From IMG/VR virus record IMGVR_UViG_3300025617_000009, positions 1-64,000 of that record: a stretch of 64,000 nucleotides of DNA; one strand, written 5' to 3'. Below the pieces are notes generated by a model that saw nothing but the letters and a program-made list of their open reading frames with translations, was not told the DNA's origin and ran no database searches. How positions within the stretch are numbered: the first letter of the stretch is position 1; the number at the start of each line of letters is the position of its first letter. This stretch comes from a virus. The translations under genes were made by a program, and so were the position numbers. Of the stretch, positions 1 through 26,325 are shown piece after piece.

Positions 1-1028
1 TTGTCGTATGGCAAGCCACTGTTGCTTACTGCAAATATTATACGGCCGGCGAAGTAGTCTGTGGCTGCTAGTACACCGTAGCGATATACTGCTAGATCTC
101 TGTCGCCTGCGTTTGTTGATGAGGTGTAATCACCTCTGTGTGTGTAGTTGTCAAAGTCGTAGAATGTAGTGTTTGCGAGATCACTGTCAGCGCAGTAGTA
201 GCCTGCTCTGCCCATGTACATCGCTTGTGTGGGTATTTGTGTGTCTGTGCCAGGATCATAGGGATGGTTTACATAACGTACTACACCGTTGGCACTGAAT
301 GCTCCAAATGTTCCCATGGCATACGAGTTACCATCTAAGGTGCTTGCTGTGCCTGGATACATAAAACTTGTGTTGCTTTGACTCCTTACACTTGCCCAAA
401 ATGAAGGACCTTGGCCTTCTTGAGATTTTACCACACTCAAACTACCGGAAAATGTAGCTTGTGTATATGATCCTTGACTGCCGCTGGTGAATCTAATACC
501 AGTGGCACTGGTTGGCCATGATTCTATACCACGAGCTGCTGCACTGATAAGATGTGTGTTTCCGTTGCTTACTGTGAATGCTAGTCCGTAGAAATCAGGC
601 CATGCTCCTAGATTGGCATCGGTGTAGGTCTGTATTTGATTTGGGTTGGCGGGATCACTGATATCAAAACAGTGTATGCGTCCTTGTCTGCCTGAAACTG
701 TGGCTGTGCCTACATACACCAACTCATTGATGTTGTCATAGGCTAGAGGCACTGGCTTGTCTCCTCCTGCATATTCCCAGGTTGGAGAGAATGTGCCTGT
801 GCCTATCTGTGTGGCACTTGCATTGGGCCATGCACTCATATCCCAGATAGTAAAACTTGACGAGCCTGTAGTGAATGCACGATCGTTTTCTTCGTCTATG
901 AGTAGATATGTTCCACTGGGAGCAGTTATACCTGTTTGTATATCTGCTGTGGTTGGATCAAACGAATATCCACTGGGACTTGTAAATCCTGAAAATCCAC
1001 TTTGACTGAAACTGGTTAATCTTGGCAC
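1..1028 (-). CDS. Beta-propeller-like tail fibre/adhesin protein (3' end outside window)
   Basis: The frame stays open from a GTG start at 1028 to the window edge, so at least 342 codons are present and the C-terminus is missing. The start follows a GGAG ribosome site that overlaps the stop of the upstream gene. The protein begins MPRLTSFSQSGF, echoing the MPRLASLSG start of its upstream neighbour, so the two share an N-terminal peptide. The body has repeated strand-like stretches such as ELVYVGTATV and IHCFDISDP, which resemble LVIVD-type or other beta-propeller blades. It is rich in Ser, Thr, Gly and Asn, has no signal peptide and no visible enzyme motif. Being last in a run of tail-fibre genes, it is most likely a virion receptor-binding or accessory fibre protein. 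That function is inferred from context and fold class. Confidence 0.7.
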   Translation of the reverse strand, partial: MPRLTSFSQSGFSGFTSPSGYSFDPTTADIQTGITAPSGTYLLIDEENDRAFTTGSSSFTIWDMSAWPNASATQIGTGTFSPTWEYAGGDKPVPLAYDNINELVYVGTATVSGRQGRIHCFDISDPANPNQIQTYTDANLGAWPDFYGLAFTVSNGNTHLISAAARGIESWPTSATGIRFTSGSQGSYTQATFSGSLSVVKSQEGQGPSFWASVRSQSNTSFMYPGTASTLDGNSYAMGTFGAFSANGVVRYVNHPYDPGTDTQIPTQAMYMGRAGYYCADSDLANTTFYDFDNYTHRGDYTSSTNAGDRDLAVYRYGVLAATDYFAGRIIFAVSNSGLPYD

Positions 1029-1037
1029 GACTGCTCC

Positions 1038-2237
1038 TTACACACTGTTTACTATCCCAGACATATCGAAGGCATGTAATCTTCCACTGTTGGTTCCTAC
1101 AACACAGAGATTGGATTCTAACTTCCAACGAGTTAGTCCTCTTGTTCCAGTGATGCCTGGTATACTGTCTAGTAGATTTTCGTGTTCAGTCCACGTAGTG
1201 TTTGGCCAGGCAGTGTCTATGTCTGTTGTACTCAGTACCTGTCCAGCACTTACTAGGATCACACTTCTTGCTGTCGAACCTGGATGAACTGCTATACTTC
1301 CGTCTGAGCTCAGACTGTTGTTTGAATATATCAATGTGGCTTGAGGCAATCCGCCTATGCCAATAGGAAATACCACTTTGTATACCTGGGTTCCAGCATT
1401 ACTTCCGCCTGTACAAGCAACAATATATGTACGCTCATCTACCACTGTGCCTGTCATATGTCTTGCAACTTCTGCAGAATTACCTGCTGCTGTGAAAGAA
1501 CCGGCATCACCTCGTCCATCGTAATCTCTGTATACATTCACTGTTACATTGTTACCTGACGGAGTTCTTGCGGCAGCCCAAAATCGTGCTGCACCCAACG
1601 GATGATATAGTGCATTGTCGTGAACACATGCATACCCTCTTGTAAAGTCTAGTTGTGAGGTATTAAATGTAAAGAAGTTATTTCCGTTTGGGCTTCCTGT
1701 GGTCACGTTTGTTTGGCCCATGACTCTTCCAGTATACCCATCTTGTACTGTAAGAACATTACCTACATGAGCTGAGTGTATTCTAGCAAATCCAAAGTTG
1801 TTTGAGGATTGATAGCCGCTGAATCTGTTAGGTCTTCCTACACTTGCAGGAGTTTGAACTTGTGCCGAAGTGTATGCATACACATCAAGCTCTCCTTCGT
1901 TGCTGTTACCAAATGGCCTTCCGAGATAGATGTAGTTGTTGTTCATTGTGCATTGATAAAATCCCTGGGTGTCGACGCCTGTGCTTGTAGTAGATACAGT
2001 GTCTACTGCTGTAAATTCATTGCCGGTGCCTGCAAGTAAATTGTTGTAGAGAGACAACGAGTTGCTTCCTTTACGCCACACTGCAACACTGCCGTTCTCT
2101 GCGTAGTTAATATCAAATGCACGATAGTCGTATGTAGATATGCTGCTTATATAACCTAGCAGTGTTGCACCGCTTGAACTGCTGCCGCTTTGCGAGGAAG
2201 AAAAGTTTGCTCCACTTAAACTTGCAAGTCTAGGCAT
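1038..2237 (-). CDS. Putative tail fibre-associated beta-propeller protein
   Basis: This 399-residue protein is dominated by Ser, Thr, Gly and Asn and by short hydrophobic strands. Segments such as NNYIYLGRPFG, NSAEVARHMTG and SNLCVVGTNSGRLHAFDMSG look like blades of a beta-propeller (WD/PQQ type), but I could not define a regular repeat. A Ser/Gly linker occupies about residues 8-25. The ATG follows an AAGG ribosome site and lies 3 bases after the upstream stop, so it is co-transcribed with the fibre genes before it. Its N-terminal MPRL peptide is shared with the next gene downstream. No catalytic motif is visible. A structural or receptor-binding role is inferred from position and composition. 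Confidence 0.7.
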   Translation of the reverse strand: MPRLASLSGANFSSSQSGSSSSGATLLGYISSISTYDYRAFDINYAENGSVAVWRKGSNSLSLYNNLLAGTGNEFTAVDTVSTTSTGVDTQGFYQCTMNNNYIYLGRPFGNSNEGELDVYAYTSAQVQTPASVGRPNRFSGYQSSNNFGFARIHSAHVGNVLTVQDGYTGRVMGQTNVTTGSPNGNNFFTFNTSQLDFTRGYACVHDNALYHPLGAARFWAAARTPSGNNVTVNVYRDYDGRGDAGSFTAAGNSAEVARHMTGTVVDERTYIVACTGGSNAGTQVYKVVFPIGIGGLPQATLIYSNNSLSSDGSIAVHPGSTARSVILVSAGQVLSTTDIDTAWPNTTWTEHENLLDSIPGITGTRGLTRWKLESNLCVVGTNSGRLHAFDMSGIVNSV

Positions 2238-2240
2238 GTA

Positions 2241-4991
2241 TTACAGCCTTGTTATATCAACGATGTGAGCCGCACCGCCTGCATATGTGCTAGGTCCAAC
2301 TTGTAGATATGCTCCTGCAATAAACTTATCGCCCGACATGTCTATATTTCGGCCAAAGTTTGCACTAGTAAGACTCTCGCCGATGTCTGGACAGTCAACT
2401 GTGTGTAACAACGACCCATCTGTAACATCAAACACGTATACCTTACCTACGGCTGTAACACCTTCGTATTCACGATGCGATGCTGCTACAACATATGATT
2501 CATTTATTGCTACATCCCAGCCAAAATAGTCTGCTGTAGTGCCAGCATCTGGATTTGGATTATCTAATGTATGCAATAATGAACCGTCGCTTAGATCAAA
2601 TACGTAGGCTTTACCTGTGCTGTTAAATGCTGCTTCGTCTTCATTTGTTGCTCCAACAACAGCATACGAGTTTGAAATATGAACTGTCCTACCGAAGCTA
2701 TCACCGGTCTCAGTATCATAGTCGTTTGGATTATCAAATGTGTATACTAGATTACCAGTTGACAAATCGTATACATATGCTTTACCCGAGTTAGAAGCAC
2801 CTTGGTCGTTTGACGAATCGCCAATAATAGCATGAGAATCTGATAATCCTACACTTATACCAAAGTCACCGCCAAAACCACTCGGGTCAGATAAAGTATA
2901 TAATAAACTGCCGTCGACGGCATTATAAATGTATGCACCACCTACGAAACTATTATCATTTTGAGCGCCAATAATAATATGAGTATCTGTTATAGCCACG
3001 CTTGTGTCATCACCTGCAAATCGTTCACTATTACCAAGACTTGGATTTTCTATAGTGTACAGTAAACTTCCGCTATTTACATCGTAGACGTATGCAACAC
3101 CTTGATCGTTGTAAGTGCCATCTTCTAAAGCTCCTACAATAGCATACTTACTTGAAATAGCAACAGCAGAACCAAATCTGTCGTTGTCTGTATTACTGTA
3201 TTGATTTGGGTTAACTAGTTCATGGAGTAGTTGTCCGCTAATTGTGCTAACAATATATGCTCGGCCCGATGCACTACCATCTTCTGACGCACCTGGCGAA
3301 CCTATGATAGCTTTGTTGCCTGATATTCCTACGCTCCAGCCAAAGTCATCTGCGTAGTTTCCATCGTTACCTAAATTCCAAATGCTAAGTGGGTTAGGTA
3401 GTACAGGATTGTTAAGAGGATATCTTACAAGTACAGCACCACTGCCGCCATCACCGCCACGTGATGATGATCCGCCTGTACGACCGGCACCACCACCACC
3501 ACCGCCGGTGTAGGACATACCGTCTTCACCTGTAGGTTCACCTGAACCACTTCTTAACTCAGAGCCGCCTGTACCTGCACCAGTTGGGCTATCGCCTCGA
3601 CCGCCACCGCCCGGGTGAGGTTCTAGCAAACTAGTTATACCGTTGCTGCCCCACTTACCGCCGCAGCCGCCTGAAGCAAACCATCCAGAGTCGCCTACAT
3701 CATCACCGAACTTATCACCGAAGTATAAACCTTCACCGCCTCGTCCAGCAATATTACGGTCAGCTGGATCTACGGCAGCCGAGCCAGCGCCGCCGCCACC
3801 GCCACCGCCGTGGTTTTGAGTGGCACCGTCAGTGTTGTTTACACCATCATTGCCGTAACCATACAGCCCACTATCACCTGCTTGCGAAGTTTGATTGCCT
3901 GTTACTACGTGACCAGAAATATCGTTTGCTCCACCGCCGCCTGATCCGCCTTCTCCTGAACGTGCATCTTGGGACCATGACGAACCAAATCCACCGCCTT
4001 TGGCAGTTAGTACATATCCGTTGCCGTCATCAAAAATACTGTCACCGCCTGCTGTAGCATTAGGCATACCTCCGTAACTACCAGGGTTGTAAGAACCAGT
4101 ACCTCCTTGACCTACTGTGATCGTGGTAGTTGCTGATGACAAGGTAAGTTTAGGACGATAGATTAAACCACCAGCTCCGCCGCCTCCTGGAGCAGCGTGA
4201 CTTCCGCCGCCTCCTCCTCCAGCAACCATGAGTACATCAACTTCTAAGTCTCCAGTATTAATAAAGTCTCCGGCAGAGTTAAAATAGTGTACACGATAAT
4301 CTATGTTGTCTGCATCTCGGTAGGTGTAAACTTCATCACCACCTGATGTTGTAACTTTTTTTACAGTTATATCTTGTGTTGTAGACACACCTGTTCTAGT
4401 TGTTGCTGTTACTGTGAATGTGTAATCACCGTCTGAACCTGTCGGTGATCCTTGTATCACACCTGTTTCGGATAATTCTACTCCAGTTGGCAGAGTTCCG
4501 CTGTCAACAGAGTACGTTATTAATCCACCTGTTTCGTAATCTGTGGTTAGTTGAGCTATACCTGTTATTCCGTCAAACACAGTAAGTGTTAAAGGCCCAA
4601 TAACAGGTGTTGGGCCTAGGTTAGTTGTTACAGGAGTAGGGACAGGATCTGCAGCATTGCCTACTTCTATACCCCAGGCTGTTGCAGTTACAAAATCCTC
4701 ATCGGTAAGCAGTGTGAGATATTTTCCACTGGGCACAAGTATTTGTGTTCTTTCCATTACACCCTTAGGTGCAATAGGAACTTCGAGTTCTAAAGGATAT
4801 ATTGTAGCGTCGTTAAGATCGGTGATGTCTGCGTTTAATGTATCAGTAAGTGCTACTGAAATTTTTATCCCGTCGTTTCTTCTATTAACAACATTTAATG
4901 TAACAGTCGTAACATCGTCAGTAGGGCATACATATATGCTCTGACTGATATTTTTGTTTAGTTCAACTGCTGCTAATCTTCCGCTTGCCAT
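2241..4991 (-). CDS. Tail fibre/adhesin: shared N-domain, Ig-like domain, glycine-rich region, seven FG-GAP repeats
   Basis: This 916-residue protein has four readable parts. Residues 1 to about 110 are the domain shared with the two genes upstream (SQSIYVCPTDD, then PKGVMERTQILVPSG, then AWGIEVG). A putative Ig (He_PIG-like) domain follows at about 130-210. A glycine-rich region at about 255-525 resembles polyglycine adhesin domains of T-even receptor-binding proteins. From about 535 to the end, seven repeats each contain an FG-GAP-like motif (FGWSVGISG, FGSAVAISS, FGISVGLSD, FGRTVHISN and others) followed by a GKAYVYDLSTG-type strand, consistent with one seven-bladed propeller. The start has an AAGGA ribosome site. 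Virion attachment through the shared N-domain and host binding by the tip are inferred. Confidence 0.85.
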   Translation of the reverse strand: MASGRLAAVELNKNISQSIYVCPTDDVTTVTLNVVNRRNDGIKISVALTDTLNADITDLNDATIYPLELEVPIAPKGVMERTQILVPSGKYLTLLTDEDFVTATAWGIEVGNAADPVPTPVTTNLGPTPVIGPLTLTVFDGITGIAQLTTDYETGGLITYSVDSGTLPTGVELSETGVIQGSPTGSDGDYTFTVTATTRTGVSTTQDITVKKVTTSGGDEVYTYRDADNIDYRVHYFNSAGDFINTGDLEVDVLMVAGGGGGGSHAAPGGGGAGGLIYRPKLTLSSATTTITVGQGGTGSYNPGSYGGMPNATAGGDSIFDDGNGYVLTAKGGGFGSSWSQDARSGEGGSGGGGANDISGHVVTGNQTSQAGDSGLYGYGNDGVNNTDGATQNHGGGGGGGAGSAAVDPADRNIAGRGGEGLYFGDKFGDDVGDSGWFASGGCGGKWGSNGITSLLEPHPGGGGRGDSPTGAGTGGSELRSGSGEPTGEDGMSYTGGGGGGAGRTGGSSSRGGDGGSGAVLVRYPLNNPVLPNPLSIWNLGNDGNYADDFGWSVGISGNKAIIGSPGASEDGSASGRAYIVSTISGQLLHELVNPNQYSNTDNDRFGSAVAISSKYAIVGALEDGTYNDQGVAYVYDVNSGSLLYTIENPSLGNSERFAGDDTSVAITDTHIIIGAQNDNSFVGGAYIYNAVDGSLLYTLSDPSGFGGDFGISVGLSDSHAIIGDSSNDQGASNSGKAYVYDLSTGNLVYTFDNPNDYDTETGDSFGRTVHISNSYAVVGATNEDEAAFNSTGKAYVFDLSDGSLLHTLDNPNPDAGTTADYFGWDVAINESYVVAASHREYEGVTAVGKVYVFDVTDGSLLHTVDCPDIGESLTSANFGRNIDMSGDKFIAGAYLQVGPSTYAGGAAHIVDITRL

Positions 4992-5000
4992 TATTAATCC

Positions 5001-7487
5001 TTATCTTATATATACGCCGTGTCCGTAGAACGCATCTGATCTATTACCACTCCAGTTACCTGAGTTACGTGCAGATCCATGTCCCCACCAGTGACCGCCC
5101 ATTCTGTGCCAATCATCATTACCGTAACGTCCGCCAATGCCTCCACCAAAAATACTGCTGCTAGAGTTGTCTCGACCGCAGCCTATTTGTGCACCATAGT
5201 GCATAGTACCGGTGTGAAAGCCGCCTACGTAGTTACTTGTGTTGCTACTACTACCGGTATCTGAACGTATCTTGAATCCTACAAACTCATTGTTTGGTTC
5301 GTATACGTTTGTATCGCTTCGTACATGTAATGCACTTACCCAATTGTAAGCATTACCGAATAGCACAACATCAGCTTTGTAAGTGTTAGGTTGATTAATA
5401 ACACTTGCCATATTTTCAAAAGCAGTATTATGTCTCCACCCAATTCTTTTGTTTAACTCGGCAGGATCGTTCGCAATAACCATTACATCGTTAAACGGAG
5501 ATAACGCATATGTAGGAGCGAATGCCTTTGTATCTGTTGCTCCATCTATGTCAAAATCTGTGTAACCTTGATCCATTACTAGCTGTTTAGTAGTAGCTTC
5601 CCATCCAGACCAGTTAGCAACTAAAAAGTCACCACTTGGAAAAGGTGCTGTGTTTTCCACACCAAAAAAGTCATCTTTCCGTAACACCAACATCCAGCCT
5701 CCGCCGTCATATTGGCTGTCCATATAGCAATGTACTTGGAATGCTTCGTTCTCGCCTTCTGGTTTAATCCAATATGCACCGTCTGTGTTTGTGCCTGTGA
5801 TACGTTTAATTTCTTTTGCACTAGGAGCAGCTAGTGCTTCTGTACTTCCATCTTGCCATTTCCTTGTAATCGCAAATGCGGTAGGAGTTGTATTTCCTAG
5901 TTCGTCAGTGGCGGTTAATGTAACTGTAGTAGGCGTAGATGTTGATGAGTATGTTTGAGTGTTTGTAAACACATATCTAGTACTAAAGTCAGCATTGGCA
6001 TTTGTAGGGAAGTCAAACGAGTTTGTAGAGAACACAATACGTGCTGCTCCTCTGCCTCCTTTGCCACCATAGCTGGTATAGCCAGGTTGATCATAACCTC
6101 CGCCACCGCCGCCACCTGGAAATCCGCCATTGCCGCCGTGTCCGTTGTTAGTATTAGTAGCGTGGTTGTCTCTACGTTCACCTGAAACAGCAGTTGCTAC
6201 AATAGTTCCAGAGAATGTTTGAGCAGAGTTATTCCAGAGGTAGGATCCGCCACCGCCACCGCCGGCACTTGAATCATCACTATAGCCGCCTTGGCCACCA
6301 GCAACTCCTGATACACCTTCTGATCCATCACCTGCTGCAGGGAATGTGTTCCAGCCACCAGCACCGCCTGCGCCTGTACCAGTTGCTAGTTCGTAGCCTA
6401 CACCAGAGTTAACTCTAGGTCCTCTCGCACCGTTACCGTCAAATCCACCAGCGCCACCGCCGCCAGCGCCACCGTTATTGTTTCCTCCAGATCCGCCGCC
6501 ATTGCCGCCTCCTCTGGTTAAACCATAACTAGCGTTTGCAGAAAATGTTCCTTGGTTAGCGTAGTTAGTAGTTCCAGCAAACCCGTCACGGTTACCGCCA
6601 ATGTAACCGCCTTGACCTGCACCGCCCGTAAGAACTGCTACATTGTCAATCTTTAATGTACTCGCTTCGCCTGCTGAACCGTATCCGTTTTTTACACCAT
6701 CTCCGCCATCGCCGACAACTACTTGAATAACTTCGCCGCCAGTGAGTGTTACATTGTTTACATAAGCAAGGCCACCACCACCGCCTCCGCCAGCACCGTA
6801 GTCGGTGTTGTCTCCGCCACCACCGCCACCGCCACCTCCGACTACTACGGCACTCATGTTAGTGAATAAACTGTTTCCTGTCGGAACTGTGATAGTGTAT
6901 GTTCCTGGCTGATCTATTAGGAAATCAACCTGAGTAGCATCTCCTGGAATGTTATCTAATGCTTCTTCCAATGTGCCAGTAAGATATTCTCCTGATACTA
7001 GTAATCCTGGTAGAAGAGTTCCGCTAGAAAGTGTAACATTTACAGGTCCTTCATCATCAATATCAAACGGTATTTCGTTTAACACGCCTGTTATAGGCTC
7101 TGCTGTATTACTAACCCAGACAGGTGCTTGTCCTAGATTTTGCGAAGCCGGAGTTACTGTAATAGAGTTACCATTTACCATACCCCATGCTTGTACACTC
7201 AATGGACTGCATGTAGATTTAATAGTTAAGAAATAATTTGAAGGTACAATAATACCAGTTCTTTCAATAACCTGTTTAGGAATAATATCTAAATCCCATT
7301 CTAATATTGCATCTGTTTCTTGAATGTCATCTCTGTTCTCAGTAACAGCAATATAAATCTTACCCGAGTCTACGCCTCTATTACAAACATTAATACTTAC
7401 TGCCGCCGCATCATCAGTGTCGCACACAAATATTGATTGTGTGACATTTCTAAAAACTTCGAATGCTCCTTGTATACCTGTAGCCAT
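5001..7487 (-). CDS. Tail fibre/adhesin: shared N-domain, glycine-rich region, fibrinogen-like C-terminal domain
   Basis: This 828-residue protein starts with the family N-domain (TQSIFVCDTDD, PKQVIERTGIIVPSN, AWGMVNG). A glycine-rich stretch at about 210-490 is full of GGGGGG blocks, followed by a short Ig-like segment. Residues of about 554-828 look like a fibrinogen-related domain: DGAYWIKPEGENEAFQVHC, then DGGGWMLVLRK, and near the end GGHWWGHGSARNSG and a terminal GVYIR, which match the DGxYWI, DGGGWTL and GGWW...KIR landmarks of that family. Fibrinogen-related domains bind acetylated sugars and other glycans, so this is a plausible lectin tip. It has an AGGAA ribosome site and ends 9 bases before the next gene. 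The domain call rests on motif recognition only. Confidence 0.85.
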   Translation of the reverse strand: MATGIQGAFEVFRNVTQSIFVCDTDDAAAVSINVCNRGVDSGKIYIAVTENRDDIQETDAILEWDLDIIPKQVIERTGIIVPSNYFLTIKSTCSPLSVQAWGMVNGNSITVTPASQNLGQAPVWVSNTAEPITGVLNEIPFDIDDEGPVNVTLSSGTLLPGLLVSGEYLTGTLEEALDNIPGDATQVDFLIDQPGTYTITVPTGNSLFTNMSAVVVGGGGGGGGGDNTDYGAGGGGGGGLAYVNNVTLTGGEVIQVVVGDGGDGVKNGYGSAGEASTLKIDNVAVLTGGAGQGGYIGGNRDGFAGTTNYANQGTFSANASYGLTRGGGNGGGSGGNNNGGAGGGGAGGFDGNGARGPRVNSGVGYELATGTGAGGAGGWNTFPAAGDGSEGVSGVAGGQGGYSDDSSAGGGGGGSYLWNNSAQTFSGTIVATAVSGERRDNHATNTNNGHGGNGGFPGGGGGGGYDQPGYTSYGGKGGRGAARIVFSTNSFDFPTNANADFSTRYVFTNTQTYSSTSTPTTVTLTATDELGNTTPTAFAITRKWQDGSTEALAAPSAKEIKRITGTNTDGAYWIKPEGENEAFQVHCYMDSQYDGGGWMLVLRKDDFFGVENTAPFPSGDFLVANWSGWEATTKQLVMDQGYTDFDIDGATDTKAFAPTYALSPFNDVMVIANDPAELNKRIGWRHNTAFENMASVINQPNTYKADVVLFGNAYNWVSALHVRSDTNVYEPNNEFVGFKIRSDTGSSSNTSNYVGGFHTGTMHYGAQIGCGRDNSSSSIFGGGIGGRYGNDDWHRMGGHWWGHGSARNSGNWSGNRSDAFYGHGVYIR

Positions 7488-7495
7488 ATTTTTTC

Positions 7496-9004
7496 CTAGT
7501 TAGTCCCGAATATAAACCATGTCATCCTAGATGAGCTGTTTGGAGCGTCAATGCCCCATACGCCACTATAGTTTGGTTCTGGATAGTTTAAATCGTTATA
7601 GTTTGTTGTTACGTCAGCCGTCCATGCATAGTGTTCTGTGTTTGCGCCGGTTGTTCTACAACCTAGTGCGTTGATCATAGAATATCTATAGTTTTCGTTG
7701 TTACGAATACCAAAGTCTAGTTCGTCGGTTTCTGATAGTTCACCTCTTGCACTAGATCGGTATCTATCTCTTGATGTTGTTGCACTTCCTTTTAAGAATG
7801 TAACTGGTACTTGTAGTCTTCCTGCATCGCCGTTTACACGTAGATCTGGACCGTCGTTTCCTCTAAAGAAACTTCGTAGATTACTTCCTCTAGTACTTAA
7901 CCATTCCGAACTTGTATATGCTACTTCAGTAGAGATAGAGAATAAATCATCTGGATCATCAACTGATTCAGCAAAGCATTGCATGATTAATATATCTTTG
8001 TAGTCCCAGTCATAATACAGTGAATTTTTATAGCTCGTATTATCTACTAAATTTGTAAAGTTACCAAATGTATTAGTATCAGTCCAACTACCTAACCATG
8101 ACCCGGTACCTGCCGTGCTCTGGGGGATTGTAACGTCGCAGCTGATACTTCCTAATAATGCCCAGCCTGTGTTAGAACTTCCTGCATAGTCTGCATTGCC
8201 GCCAATACCTGTAGTTGCGTTAGTAGTGAATAGTTTTGTTTCTACAGTATTGCCAACAGCATCTAAAATATAAATGCTTCCTGATGTTTGATTTGAAGTG
8301 TTAATAGCTGTACTAAGATTAGCGTCAGATGCTAAAGGATTATCTGAAACTGTTCCCGGAGCCCATGAACGAAGTATACTGAATACTCTTGGAGTTGCTA
8401 GTCTAGAATCTTTTGCTTCGACGGTGAATGTATAAGGTACACCACCAGCGTTGTAAGCATCACCTTCTTGAATAAAACCAGATATTGTACCCGATTGTTG
8501 GATAATCATTCCAGTTGGAAGTGTGCCAGCTGTTTGTTCATAGGTTACACTAGCACCGTCTGGATCTGTAGCATCTAGTTGAATAGGCGTCATATCGAAT
8601 CCTTCGTATATTTCTCCTAGATCAGCAGTAGTATTCCATACAGGCGCAGTACCATCGTTTTGTAAAGGTTGTGGATCGCCAGTTTCTTCGCCTAGTTCAT
8701 ATCCCCAAAGAACTACACTAGTAGCTTCTCCGGTAGATCTGACTGTTACATAATGATTTGCAGGAAGCACTAGTCCTGTTCGCTCTAATACACCTTTTGG
8801 TTCTAATCTTACATCATATTCAATGTATTCATCTACGGTAGCAGAGTTTTCTGTAGATGTAATAGCCACCCTAATATAAGTTGGTACTATATCCCTGTTA
8901 CATATACTAACATTGATTACAGTTGCGTCATCGCTGGTACATTTATAAACCGACTGTGTAATACTTGGAAATATCTCCCAAGCACCTAAACGACCTACTG
9001 CCAT
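7496..9004 (-). CDS. Tail fibre protein: shared N-domain, Ig-like domain, unique C-terminal domain
   Basis: First gene of the fibre operon, 502 residues. Residues 1 to about 110 carry the shared domain (TQSVYKCTSDD, PKGVLERTGLVLPAN, LWGYELG). A He_PIG-like Ig domain follows at about 125-215 (TAGTLPTGMIIQQSGTISG). The remaining 290 residues match nothing I recognise; they are aromatic-rich and end in TWFIFGTN. There is no glycine-rich block, unlike the two downstream paralogues. A GGAG ribosome site sits 8 bases before ATG, and a late-promoter motif lies further upstream at 9029-9036, so this gene probably heads a late transcript covering five fibre genes down to position 1 and beyond. Confidence 0.82.
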   Translation of the reverse strand: MAVGRLGAWEIFPSITQSVYKCTSDDATVINVSICNRDIVPTYIRVAITSTENSATVDEYIEYDVRLEPKGVLERTGLVLPANHYVTVRSTGEATSVVLWGYELGEETGDPQPLQNDGTAPVWNTTADLGEIYEGFDMTPIQLDATDPDGASVTYEQTAGTLPTGMIIQQSGTISGFIQEGDAYNAGGVPYTFTVEAKDSRLATPRVFSILRSWAPGTVSDNPLASDANLSTAINTSNQTSGSIYILDAVGNTVETKLFTTNATTGIGGNADYAGSSNTGWALLGSISCDVTIPQSTAGTGSWLGSWTDTNTFGNFTNLVDNTSYKNSLYYDWDYKDILIMQCFAESVDDPDDLFSISTEVAYTSSEWLSTRGSNLRSFFRGNDGPDLRVNGDAGRLQVPVTFLKGSATTSRDRYRSSARGELSETDELDFGIRNNENYRYSMINALGCRTTGANTEHYAWTADVTTNYNDLNYPEPNYSGVWGIDAPNSSSRMTWFIFGTN

Positions 9005-9028: not shown

Positions 9029-9036
9029 TATTTATG
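9029..9036 (-). promoter_or_regulatory. T4-type late promoter (CATAAATA)
   Basis: Minus-strand CATAAATA matches the T4 late -10 consensus TATAAATA in seven of eight positions. It lies 24 bases before the ATG at 9004, leaving room for a short leader with GGAG. It would drive the five-gene fibre operon. Confidence 0.6.
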
Positions 9037-9058: not shown

Positions 9059-10486
9059 TTAATCAGTATCTAGATTGTTTAAAAACTGCTTGAGTTTGGT
9101 AGAACTTGCTTCTGCTTGTATCTTAGGCGCAGCTTTGCCTTCATCTGGAGTGTCACTAGATTGTATTGGTTTAGAACCTCCACGTTTGAGTGCATCTACA
9201 ATACTGTTGCTTCCGCTACTGCTAGTTGCTGTTGCCGGTGCATCTTCGTCTTCGCCTAGATCAAATATACGCAGTGTGTCTACATCAAAGCCTAGATCAA
9301 TCTTAGCACCTACGCCACTTGAACTACGTGTTTTCATCAACTGGATTTGATAGCGTCCACGTTCACGCATAGCACGACTTGTAAAGATACCAATCAAGTT
9401 ATCTGCTGTATTAATCTTAGATATACCGCCCGAGATGTGCGAATGATCAAATTCAATCTCTTCTACACTTGATCTGTTCAACTGACTTGCTGTAACAAAG
9501 ATACAGTTAAGTTCCATTGCCAAGTTACGTAGTTCTTCTGACACATACTTGTCTTTGACAAACAAGTTCTCTGCAGATATCTTTTGTCCAAGCGGGTGCA
9601 TAAGATCCAAGTAATCAATTAATAATACGTCTACTTTACGTCCTGTTTTAATTTCATATTCTTTTAGATAAGCTCTAACGTCATTAGCATTCTTGCCTGT
9701 AGGCATATATTTGACCTGGAAAGCACCTGACTTTTTACCGATCATGCGTACTTTCATTTCAACATCGTCGATGGTTTTAAAGATGTCTCTGCTAGGTATG
9801 TCTGTGGTCATCGAATCAAGGCGCATACTAACTAGATTTTCACTTAGCTCAAATGTCAAGTATAATACATTCTTACCTTGTAAACACCAGTTCACACCCA
9901 TGTTTGCCATAAACAAACTCTTACCAGAACCTGACCCACCTGCAAAGATATTCAGTTCGCCTCTGTTGAATCCGCCAAATAACTTACGATCTAAAGCAGG
10001 CCACCCTGTGCTCACTTGTCCGTTCTTGTCTTTGATTGCTTCGAGTCGAGCTCTAGGATCAGCAAAATAATCTGTACCTAGATCTTTTTGTAAGCCAATT
10101 TGTACAGCACTCTTAACAAGTTCTTCACAACGTCCATACTCACCTTTCTCTAATAGGTCTGCTGAGTCAAGGATTGCTTTCTCTAGTGCTTTGTGTTTGG
10201 CAAATGTTTCAAAGTCTTGTAGCAACCAGTCATAGTGATTCTCTGCTAGTTGTCCTGGGTCTTTCAAGTCTGTATTTGTAGAAGCATTAACAATTTCAAA
10301 TGTAGGTAATGCGTTATGCTCTTCTACATATGTTTTAATAAACTTAGCTGGTTCTTGTAAACGTCTATCAAATGTGTTAGGATCAAACACACCCTGACAG
10401 CGTACAAAGCTCTCAGCGTCTGTCATAAACATTTCTAGATATACTCGTTGTATGTCGTAACCGTAGTCTGTGTTCTGTCTTGTCAT
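9059..10486 (-). CDS. gp41: Replicative DNA helicase, T4 gp41/DnaB family
   Basis: The 475-residue protein is a RecA-fold hexameric helicase that unwinds DNA 5'-3' at the phage fork and pairs with the gp61 primase encoded just upstream. Walker A is GGSGSGKS at 183-190; Walker B is VDVLLIDYLDL at about 285-295; a DnaB-type H4 segment FVTASQLNRSS follows, and an arginine-rich MRERGRYQIQLMKTR region lies near 380. The N-terminal helical domain covers about 1-150 and the C-terminal tail is Ser/Pro/Ala-rich and probably disordered. Length matches T4 gp41 (475). The start is fixed by a sigma-70 promoter whose -10 lies 6 bases before ATG, inside the 3' end of the carbamoyltransferase gene. No Shine-Dalgarno site is present. 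Confidence 0.96.
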   Translation of the reverse strand: MTRQNTDYGYDIQRVYLEMFMTDAESFVRCQGVFDPNTFDRRLQEPAKFIKTYVEEHNALPTFEIVNASTNTDLKDPGQLAENHYDWLLQDFETFAKHKALEKAILDSADLLEKGEYGRCEELVKSAVQIGLQKDLGTDYFADPRARLEAIKDKNGQVSTGWPALDRKLFGGFNRGELNIFAGGSGSGKSLFMANMGVNWCLQGKNVLYLTFELSENLVSMRLDSMTTDIPSRDIFKTIDDVEMKVRMIGKKSGAFQVKYMPTGKNANDVRAYLKEYEIKTGRKVDVLLIDYLDLMHPLGQKISAENLFVKDKYVSEELRNLAMELNCIFVTASQLNRSSVEEIEFDHSHISGGISKINTADNLIGIFTSRAMRERGRYQIQLMKTRSSSGVGAKIDLGFDVDTLRIFDLGEDEDAPATATSSSGSNSIVDALKRGGSKPIQSSDTPDEGKAAPKIQAEASSTKLKQFLNNLDTD

Positions 10487-10492
10487 CTTATT

Positions 10493-10521
10493 ATTATATT
10501 ACCTATGCCATACTTTGTCAA
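10493..10521 (-). promoter_or_regulatory. Early sigma-70-like promoter of gp41
   Basis: Minus strand TTGACA (10521-10516), 17-base spacer, TATAAT (10498-10493), then AATAAG and ATG. Both hexamers are perfect consensus. The normal start distance puts +1 at or next to the ATG, predicting a leaderless message. Confidence 0.82.
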
Positions 10522-11464
10522 TGTTTGTAAACTGTTTTGATTTTGCCAATACTGCACCTATGCACGATCCAGGATCGCCCGGGTTCTTAGGTACATGTAC
10601 TGTTTCCCAGTAAGGGCGTATTTTATCTACGGCCCGACGGTTAAGAGCGCCGCCTCCTGCTAGGGCTAGATTATCTGCACCTGTGTACCAACTAGCCCAC
10701 ATACTTAATCCTTGTAGTGCGTCTTCAAACAAGTCCTGGGTAGTAGCCGCTAAACACCCTAAGGCCCGTTCACTGCTTATCCCTGGGCGTAACCAGTTGC
10801 ACCCTCTATGTAGATTTATCTTAAACCGCCAACTAGGGTCTGCATAGGTAGGCATCTTTTCTATGACCTCTGACATCATCATACTGCGAAAGTGGTCAGG
10901 GTCGTAACCTTCACCCATGCCCGCTACCATGTATTCATCTCGCTGTGCTACCAGCCCAAGGCGCTGTGTCATAGCAGAGTAAAATAATCCTGGGCTGTGA
11001 GGATATCCTTGGCTAAAGATTTTTTTAAGTTTGCCTTGTTGTCCGTGCCATATTGTAAGTGTTTCAAACTCGCCTATGCTATCTAAACAAATAATTGCAC
11101 AATCGTCATGCGGTTGTGTATAGTAAGCATACGCGGCATGACTATGATGATGTTGTGTATACATTATTTTGGGATTGCGTATACCACGTTCTTGAAAATA
11201 TCTTTCTATATCATTCTCTTTAAACAACCAGCCTTGTCCAGCCCATAACTGTCTAACACTTTTTAAGAACGGGCGTTCGTACCATATGATATAACTAGGA
11301 TAACCCCAGTGTTCTATAGCATAGTCTAGCAGTTCTTTGTTTAGGTGAGGGTCGTTGGGTATGCCTGAAAAATCTTTGGCAAGCCCTGCCCACACTAATG
11401 TGTCGTAACTGAATACAGCCAGACTAGCATCGTGACTGTTACCTACTGCTCCCCAAGTAATCAT
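10499..11464 (-). CDS. Carbamoyltransferase-like protein (NodU/TobZ N-terminal domain only)
   Basis: The 321-residue protein resembles the Kae1-like domain of O-carbamoyltransferases. It opens with WGAVGNSHDASLAVF, has the metal-site-like segment TQHHHSHAAYAYY near 125, CLDSIGEFETLTIW near 150, and a glycine-rich LALAGGGALNR near 270 followed by PGDPGSCIGAVL, as in the family. Full-length NodU proteins are about 560 residues because of a separate C-terminal carbamoyl domain, which is absent here. Family members move a carbamoyl group from carbamoyl phosphate to a sugar or other hydroxyl; the substrate here is unknown. The ATG overlaps the TGA of the 40-residue gene upstream (ATGA), so it belongs to the primase operon. 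A role in modifying a glycan or nucleotide is inference. Confidence 0.85.
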   Translation of the reverse strand: MITWGAVGNSHDASLAVFSYDTLVWAGLAKDFSGIPNDPHLNKELLDYAIEHWGYPSYIIWYERPFLKSVRQLWAGQGWLFKENDIERYFQERGIRNPKIMYTQHHHSHAAYAYYTQPHDDCAIICLDSIGEFETLTIWHGQQGKLKKIFSQGYPHSPGLFYSAMTQRLGLVAQRDEYMVAGMGEGYDPDHFRSMMMSEVIEKMPTYADPSWRFKINLHRGCNWLRPGISSERALGCLAATTQDLFEDALQGLSMWASWYTGADNLALAGGGALNRRAVDKIRPYWETVHVPKNPGDPGSCIGAVLAKSKQFTNIDKVWHR

Positions 11465-24891: not shown

Positions 24892-25558
24892 GCTGTTGGC
24901 AATACTCTGTATAGATGCGTTCTCTATGCCATTCGTCGCCCATGGGTGTTGTAGCAAACTCGTGAAAACTAGGAGTACCTAATGTGTAGTGTAGTAGTTT
25001 AGCATCTGGATTAGCGCCGTATTCATCTGGCAACCAGTTCCATTCAGGAGAAAGTTCTCCTATGCGTTCATCCTCAATGTGCTGAAATCTATGTAGTTGA
25101 GCACCTGTGGCATTTTGTACATATTCTGGTGTAAGTCTTTTATTAGGGAAACTAGCACAGTTCCAAAGAATAACAGAACTCCAGTTTTTTCTAGGGTAGT
25201 TTTCGTTTTTACTTCCAAGATACTTTTCAGTCATCTTAGTTTGGTAATCGTGTTTTACAACCATTACATCTTTATCAGTTTCTTTTAAGTTCCACAACTT
25301 ATAGATGTCGTCACGAACAATCATATCGCCATCCATGAAGATTGCCCAACCTGTATAGTTCATTAAATGCGGAACAAGAAAACGACTGTAAATAAAATGG
25401 TTTGATCCGTCTGTGTGTTTTTCTTCGTAGTCTTGTAGTAAGTTTAATGCTAGAGGAATAATCTGTACAGGGCCGCTTGCATGTCTAATAATAGAGTTTG
25501 CACATACGTGAAAGGCTATTGCTTCTCTAGGATCATATCCTATAAAAATTGGAATCAT
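24875..25558 (-). CDS. GT8-like glycosyltransferase
   Basis: The 227-residue protein begins MIPIFIGYDPREAIAFHVCA, as in family-8-type transferases, and carries YTGWAIFMDGDMIVRDDIYKL (DXD near 76-78), with YSRFLVPHLM before it. Near the C-terminus, LLHYTLGTPSFHEF contains a HYT motif of the kind that completes the metal site. It should be a retaining glycosyltransferase; GT8 members typically use UDP-sugars. The start overlaps the stop of the nucleotidyltransferase gene (ATGA). Close relatives occur in marine phages and bacterial polysaccharide clusters. Substrate not deducible. Confidence 0.8.
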   Translation of the reverse strand: MIPIFIGYDPREAIAFHVCANSIIRHASGPVQIIPLALNLLQDYEEKHTDGSNHFIYSRFLVPHLMNYTGWAIFMDGDMIVRDDIYKLWNLKETDKDVMVVKHDYQTKMTEKYLGSKNENYPRKNWSSVILWNCASFPNKRLTPEYVQNATGAQLHRFQHIEDERIGELSPEWNWLPDEYGANPDAKLLHYTLGTPSFHEFATTPMGDEWHRERIYTEYCQQHDMPE

Positions 25559-26325
25559 CGTCTTTCAATATCCTCTTCTACACATACAGTACCCCATTGA
25601 ATTTCAAGAACATGTGCATTTTCTGTTCCTGGATTACTTGCCTGATGCCATACTTCTTTGCCTATTTTATAAGTAAAACTGTCTGATGTTAGATGCACAC
25701 TTTCTTTAATTCTATTATATTCAGTATCCATCTTAACACTGCCTTCGAGTACAGTCCAATCTTCCGAACGTTTAAAATGTCGTTGATCGCTTAGACTTTT
25801 TCCAGGATAGATTACAAGTTCTTTAACTTTATAACCTTTACTAGGTTTATCGTCTAATACTCTCCAATAACCCCAGTCACGTTCTGTCTTTTGTGTTTTC
25901 CACTCGTCTAATATCCACGAGCTAGAATTCTTTTTATTTTCACCACCTATGCCAAACTCGAAACTTAGATTATCTGCTATGACTTTCATTTCAGGAATAT
26001 TTTTGCTAGTTCTGTCGCCACCGTTAGCAAACACAACTTCGTCTTCTTCATAGTTCCAGCACGAATCTTGTACAAACTTAGTACAAGTGTCATCAGCATC
26101 ATAGTCGTCATCAAATGCTACAACAGCGTCTACCATAGATAGTGCTCTAATAACTTCTGCTCTTTCTTCTAAAGGCATAAACGGTCTGCCTTTCTTGCGT
26201 GTAAGCCAAGCATCGCTGTTAATGCCAACTACAAGTCGATCACCTAATGTTTTAGCTTCTTTGAAATATTCTATATGACCTGAATGAAGTGGATCAAATC
26301 CACCTGTAACTAATACTACTCTCAT
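25555..26325 (-). CDS. Nucleotidyltransferase (HldE C-domain/TagD-like) fused to a cupin domain
   Basis: Residues 1 to about 135 are a cytidylyltransferase-like domain with GGFDPLHSGHIEYFKEA (HxGH at 14-17), GDRLVVGINSDAWLTRKKGR and PLEERAEVIRALSMVDAVV, the closest resemblance being the ADP-heptose synthase half of HldE. Residues of about 150-256 form a cupin: WGYWRVLDDKPSKGYKVKEL, then PGKSLSDQRHFKRSEDWTVL and VWHQASNPG, like the C-terminal half of type II mannose-6-phosphate isomerases. The first domain would activate a sugar phosphate with ATP or CTP; the cupin may isomerise the sugar. With hldD and gmhB homologues at 53.5-55.3 kb it fits an ADP-heptose-type route. A late-promoter motif lies 5 bases before ATG. 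Confidence 0.85.
   Translation of the reverse strand: MRVVLVTGGFDPLHSGHIEYFKEAKTLGDRLVVGINSDAWLTRKKGRPFMPLEERAEVIRALSMVDAVVAFDDDYDADDTCTKFVQDSCWNYEEDEVVFANGGDRTSKNIPEMKVIADNLSFEFGIGGENKKNSSSWILDEWKTQKTERDWGYWRVLDDKPSKGYKVKELVIYPGKSLSDQRHFKRSEDWTVLEGSVKMDTEYNRIKESVHLTSDSFTYKIGKEVWHQASNPGTENAHVLEIQWGTVCVEEDIERR

Follow-up and report, generated by a model that had tools for sequence, protein, structure and literature searches.

Branched tailspike complexes of the Ackermannviridae (TSP1-4 of CBA120 and S117) combine shared N-terminal domains with variable heads, and their evolution involves both exchange and duplication (PMC11414711). Such racks, in which several receptor-binding proteins have N-terminal domains in common, and cyanophage leaders with changing tips are already known. 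On the side of the ligands, intelectins (X-type lectins) are described as chordate lectins (PMC12800186, PMC8213764), and intelectin-1 binds exocyclic diols (1,2-diols) of microbial glycans in a calcium-dependent manner (PMC8185196). Here we analyze three tandem genes in a window of 64,000 nt (bases 1-64000 of the 115,084-base virus record IMGVR_UViG_3300025617_000009), which we consider probable to form a late operon of virion adhesins built on one jelly-roll anchor, with presence in the virion, attachment site, and ligands being inferred.

The source is a marine virus of bacteria and, judging from window genes for tail sheath, tail tube, head-tail adaptor, and terminase, a contractile-tailed phage. 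Its terminase and DnaB helicase have their nearest relatives in PA5oct-type jumbo phages (54% and 52% identity, respectively), and the genome is therefore probably larger than the record. Three minus-strand genes of 502, 828, and 916 codons come right after the DnaB gene (9059-10486) and are referred to here as gene 1 (7496-9004), gene 2 (5001-7487), and gene 3 (2241-4991). All are intact open reading frames, with intergenic gaps of 8 to 9 bp.

Sequence comparison establishes the domain architecture of the three products and the common descent of their N-terminal domains. In the reading that we favor, all three proteins would start with one type of jelly-roll anchor, corresponding in fused form to a small protein that is free-standing beside the tail fibers of many marine T4-like phages. 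Behind it would come an immunoglobulin (Ig)-like spacer, in some cases a stalk rich in glycine, and finally a binding head that differs from protein to protein, namely, an intelectin-like lectin, a fibrinogen-like (GGGW) lectin, or an FG-GAP propeller. The anchor may attach the protein to the tail apparatus or oligomerize it there, the heads would probably bind different host surface glycans or proteins, and the set could have arisen from duplication of one fused gene followed by exchange downstream of the anchor and Ig-like region.

The common anchor, its free-standing relatives, and probable late transcription

The earlier note on this DNA had described tandem genes starting at 9004, 7487, and 4991 with a common N terminus, and the pairwise matches are indeed far beyond chance: the N-terminal 112 amino acids (aa) match at tblastn E values of 1e-19 to 1e-25 with 34 to 43% identity, and the motifs QS[IV][YF]xCx[ST]DD, PKxV[LIM]ERT, and WG are found as quoted there. 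The region was held to span about 110 residues, which falls short of its real length of about 165 to 215 aa, since an Ig-like He_PIG domain comes after the anchor; matches between the whole proteins extend to residue 165 to 200 or so (E 1e-23 to 1e-27). The anchors lie as follows.

8687-9004, minus strand: anchor jelly-roll of gene 1, residues 1-106; eight strands in AlphaFold, with a predicted local distance difference test score of 85-93
7167-7487, minus strand: anchor of gene 2, residues 1-107, by N-terminal similarity
4656-4991, minus strand: anchor of gene 3, residues 1-112, by N-terminal similarity

The anchor is modeled as an eight-strand jelly-roll of about 106 aa, AlphaFold giving a confident eight-strand sandwich for residues 5-110, and genes 1 to 3 have in common a homologous domain of about 105 aa with the N36, E62, E74-R75, and G101 of the T4-GC 297/phrog_11338 family. 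No relative was found by sequence in the PDB. Among predicted viral folds, tail-fiber-like proteins of S-CAM1 and P-SSM2 come closest, along with small proteins (100 to 118 aa) that include those of MaMV-DC and S-SCSM1 annotated as "virion structural protein" and "virion protein," respectively. The virion protein set of S-SCSM1 was determined by mass spectrometry (PMC9602691), a set to which the anchor-fold protein may belong. Matches to solved structures are generic jelly-rolls at Z of about 8, among which gp10, gp9, and gp12 did not stand out, a result that at this generic level leaves a relation possible.

The same domain also occurs by itself. A fourth copy of 106 aa is encoded at 74465-74770 of the record, outside the window, where it directly follows a 1699-aa tail fiber gene within the tail-fiber cluster; the three fused copies sit elsewhere. 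The order of genes around it (tail fiber, anchor of about 106 aa, a protein of about 90 to 110 aa, several more genes, and a carbamoyltransferase) recurs in P-SSM2, S-CAM1, and S-CAM3, each of which has the free-standing anchor gene right after a "tail fiber protein." At some 45 further phage loci, Prochlorococcus phage P-SSM2 included, the anchor is always free-standing, in a search seeded with free-standing sequences and hence biased towards such forms. A degenerate-pattern search for anchors used single proteins as queries, the eight first-found anchors being too diverse for one profile. Searches of whole records recovered one free-standing copy each and, in cyanophages, also a doubled form named "tail fiber protein." As a separate observation, Cys/Gly-rich tandem paralogues follow the free-standing anchor within the tail-fiber cluster, two in this phage (L005:8121-10076) and three in a 262-kb relative (L190:3260-5793).

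Transcription of the three genes may likewise align with that of virion genes. In cyanomyoviruses, the motif NATAAATA has been described as the late promoter (PMC2984593). The 115 kb contain 25 occurrences of it, 15 of which precede a gene by 12 to 60 nt (Fisher p 6e-21), and the genes downstream include those for the head-tail adaptor, tail tube, and tail fibers. By itself, TATAAATA shows no enrichment across the window, whereas the relaxed NATAAATA is enriched upstream of starts. One such site precedes gene 1.

9029-9036, minus strand: late-promoter-like motif CATAAATA upstream of gene 1, within a stretch found verbatim in a sister phage

This stretch comprises 39 bases identical in the sister, a phage of about 80% identity, and the bases before it differ. 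As the gaps before genes 2 and 3 are too small for promoters of their own, the three genes are probably carried on one late transcript, and from this context late expression of all three would be expected. Across the record (the window, L005, L006, and L007), NATAAATA clusters strongly in front of genes, which are in many cases virion genes, and its sites offer a ready map of late transcription units.

Taken with the late motif, the free-standing homologue in the tail cluster, the relatives named "tail fiber protein," and the virion-annotated jelly-roll folds point to the N-terminal domain as a putative virion socket, through which, judging by context, the three proteins would be present in the particle. 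It could further be speculated that the free-standing and the three fused anchors compete for one oligomeric site and that every virion would then bear a mixed set of bare, lectin, and propeller subunits; we regard this as doubtful, but if it were true, one clone would display several receptor specificities, and head genes could be added or dropped behind a constant plug.

The proteins might instead sit on the capsid, as decorations of the head or as whisker-type fibers, with the jelly-roll on the shell, the Ig-like domain as a spacer, and the lectin head holding on to surfaces or mucus. Decoration proteins typically contain jelly-roll and Ig-like domains, and the top-ranked solved folds for the anchor include the KHP40 cement protein, from a phage, and the turret of an archaeal virus. 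These matches are, however, of the generic kind given above, homologues are annotated as tail fiber, and the free-standing homologue lies in the tail-fiber cluster at every locus whose surroundings were read, which makes a position on the capsid unlikely.

Putative binding heads, spacers, and their descent

Behind the anchors, the three proteins are composed of the following segments.

8369-8656, minus strand: Ig-like (He_PIG) domain of gene 1, residues 117-212; Pfam E 3.6e-8, with a profile match to gene 3
7499-8359, minus strand: intelectin-like tip of gene 1, residues 216-502, with NNE at 435-437 and NTEH at 455-458; phrog_29838 E 2e-43
6948-7136, minus strand: first half of an Ig-like domain in gene 2, residues 118-180; hhalign to the gene 1 Ig-like domain E 1.6e-5
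6027-6926, minus strand: glycine-rich domain of gene 2, residues 188-487; Pfam Gly_rich_2 E 9e-7; phrog_4474
5844-5939, minus strand: apparent second half of the Ig-like domain in gene 2, residues 517-548; hhalign to the C-terminal half of the gene 1 Ig-like domain E 5e-5
5004-5822, minus strand: fibrinogen-like GGGW tip of gene 2, residues 556-828; NCBIfam GGGWT_bact E 1.4e-11, Pfam Fibrinogen_C E 1e-4
4356-4634, minus strand: Ig-like (He_PIG) domain of gene 3, residues 120-212; Pfam E 3.7e-10
3414-4262, minus strand: glycine-rich domain of gene 3, residues 244-526; Pfam Gly_rich_2 E 2e-12
2244-3383, minus strand: FG-GAP propeller tip of gene 3, residues 537-916; Pfam FG-GAP_2 (PF14312) E 1e-37, seven stretches

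The fibrinogen-like domain and the seven-repeat FG-GAP domain had been recognized in the earlier note, whereas the tip of gene 1, listed there as unknown, is intelectin-like at profile level. A profile built from this tip and three relatives (four sequences) picks up, in the PDB, intelectin-1 from human (E 1.3e-9) and a serum lectin from lamprey (E 3e-7), with the next unrelated match at 0.05. Both matches are co-linear over about 190 residues, and NNE and NTEH are conserved (NNENYRYSMINALGCRTTGANTEH in the alignment). The tip of gene 2 contains a YCDxxxxGGGW motif domain (NF040941, 44.2 bits against a curated cut-off of 30), and its profile matches intelectins, fibrinogens, and tenascins in the PDB at E 4e-6 over the first 55 residues or so, the remainder of the fibrinogen domain being without a match in that search. 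By profile comparison, the tips of genes 1 and 2 have no detectable relation to each other; each separately matches a different part of intelectin. From what is known of these families, a lectin function may be proposed for both.

Gene 2 also looks like a case of one domain inserted into another. The two apparent halves of its Ig-like domain are about 330 residues apart and flank the glycine-rich domain, and the joined halves match the gene 1 Ig-like domain at E 8e-8, better than either half alone, with profiles only two sequences deep; the split halves and the stronger joined match would both be explained by insertion of the glycine-rich domain.

Comparison with the sister phage marks where modules may have been exchanged. 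In both phages the fused genes stand next to one another in an unchanged order, and their anchors are 78 to 92% identical. Gene 3 of the sister has no propeller and stops about ten residues past the glycine-rich domain, and the next gene begins 12 bp later, so that there is no space for a propeller remnant. Gain and loss of the propeller cannot be told apart from two lineages, yet its presence in one and absence from the other of two close phages is itself a natural mark of a module boundary. The head of gene 2 diverges fastest, at 47 to 57% identity in its middle versus 85 to 90% in the gene 2 anchor, while divergence of the gene 1 head is not clearly faster than that of its own anchor.

The tips are likewise established behind other N termini. 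That of gene 1 stands behind an unrelated cyanophage leader, common to more than a dozen PHROG families, in metaG-MbCM1 and P-RSM1, and that of gene 2 behind a different N terminus in DSL-LC01 and in the sequence L099. In S-TIM5, a separate protein annotated as virion structural is a propeller similar to the one in gene 3, and in S-MbCM6 such a propeller is internal to a giant virion protein.

Three fused anchors in tandem were found only in this phage, in one near-identical record, and in the sister. The idea that fusion as such is confined to this lineage was rejected, as single fused copies, found by searching from the DnaB gene, are present close to that gene in some relatives of other lineages. 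L117 (246 aa) has the anchor and an Ig-like domain, L133 (475 aa) has the anchor with apparent Calx-beta-like and LamG-like domains (our own reading, without a family match), G016 (436 aa) has the anchor and two similar repeats, and L111 has a weaker single fused copy. A 357-kb and a 262-kb record contain exactly one free-standing and one fused anchor each.

In a tree of 45 domains that leaves out other fused copies such as those of L117 and L133, the six fused anchors from the two sister phages come out as a single clade (support 100/98). When the L117 and L133 copies are added, the split between free-standing and fused anchors stays (96/86), and the six form an exclusive group at only 68/61. 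One old fused lineage, expanded to three members in this phage, would be the simplest reading of these trees. The drop to 68/61, together with N-terminal domains of such low mutual identity on long branches, could be taken to mean that the domain was acquired repeatedly and that each of the three genes came in independently from another phage, with no duplication in the lineage. The undivided clade of the first tree, the Ig-like region that is also common, and the constant order of adjacent genes in two phages speak against this, and we consider it improbable. With the anchor clade, the tips behind other N termini, and the propeller-less sister, the duplication and tip exchange proposed in the earlier note hold up, and duplication of a common N-terminal domain followed by exchange of tips is well supported at the level of sequence.

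Genomic setting of the three genes

Several points weigh against virion adhesins with the heads assigned above. Genes 1 to 3 adjoin replication genes (DnaB and primase) and lie about 65 kb from the tail-fiber cluster. Single sequences do not find intelectin, which only the four-sequence profile of the gene 1 tip does, and the relation is therefore one of remote homology. AlphaFold models of genes 1 and 2 are unusable beyond the anchor and, weakly, the Ig-like domain, and give no model of a tip. The proximity to replication genes, the oligomeric nature of animal intelectin-1 as a lectin binding microbial glycans (PMC8185196), and a free-standing copy that shows the anchor to exist without a tip would also suit soluble or cell-associated lectins released late in infection, for example, lectins that occupy receptors to prevent superinfection or that stick to cell debris, but homology to tail fiber proteins and the synteny of the tail cluster make this very unlikely.

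Two more genes follow gene 3, both with MPRL[AT]S leaders.

1038-2237, minus strand: following gene of 399 aa with an MPRLASL leader, an operon partner without a family match
3-1028, minus strand: following gene with an MPRLTSF leader, cut by the record end and without a family match

They had been put down as two further propeller-like proteins, a description that finds no backing in Pfam, PHROG, NCBIfam, or PDB families where these were searched. In the sister, the gene after the MPRL gene (L014:16774-18006) is in a position homologous to that of 3-1028 and has weak beta-propeller matches and a weak C-terminal cupredoxin match (E 0.007), with only the MPRLTSF start clearly common to the two. 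A short MPRL[AT][ST] start is found on otherwise different proteins (window 1038-2237 and 3-1028, L014 15595-18006, L110 10881, and L111 14320) and is possibly a second docking leader.

Among relatives (L100-L179), the segment after DnaB is highly variable, with fiber-like, oxygenase-like, and other genes, and is likely an insertion hot spot. On the other side, beside DnaB, 10499-11464 (321 aa) is a short Nol-like carbamoyltransferase-type gene; a long one (L005:3765-5555, 596 aa) is in the tail-fiber cluster, and cyanophages carry one in the same neighborhood. A heptose kinase/adenylyltransferase-like gene at 25555-26325, among uncharacterized genes, suggests sugar-modifying functions.

Comparison with known systems

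The closest described relatives of the anchor are the proteins of Kyanoviridae T4-GC 297 (PSSM2_302 of P-SSM2) and phrog_11338, "tail fiber protein," which have the same domain at 32 to 50% identity (tblastn), the free-standing cyanophage forms being matched by the anchor profile at E 1e-36 or better. The tail-fiber gene order around the free-standing copy is also the same. In those families the domain is free-standing or doubled before a repetitive stalk, whereas this phage also has it joined to three different heads, in an operon apart from the tail-fiber cluster. Because it is naturally fused to lectin-like heads, the T4-GC 297-type protein becomes a candidate adhesin anchor, and a widespread, unnamed small protein of marine T4-like phages thereby gains a role that can be tested.

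Glycine-rich segments like those of genes 2 and 3 may have a counterpart in the Salmonella phage S16-type gp38 adhesin, in which such a segment is near the tip of the tail-fiber system; here, Pfam Gly_rich_2 is an internal segment. The cyanophage leader families (phrog_29838, phrog_1325, phrog_24138, and others) place a leader of about 80 aa before differing C termini in more than a dozen families, one member of which bears the same intelectin-like tip as gene 1, but this leader, of the QRPxxPxxGxIRYNT type, is unrelated to the anchor. No paper turned up in a full-text literature search combining intelectin with phage tails, and literature searches for FG-GAP or fibrinogen-like phage fibers found nothing.

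As in the Ackermannviridae complexes, the products of genes 1 to 3 are tandem proteins with one N-terminal anchor and different C termini. Those complexes, however, use gp10-like XD anchors and polysaccharide-recognizing tailspike heads, where the present proteins would have a small single jelly-roll and lectin- or propeller-like heads. Compared with the intelectins, the tip of gene 1 is that of a phage protein, and the N-terminal GGGW half of intelectins is not evident in it; a domain known from animal innate immunity may thus join the candidate receptor-binding heads of phages. As far as sequences tell, what sets this locus apart is an anchor that is also free-standing in the same genome, together with an intelectin-like head.

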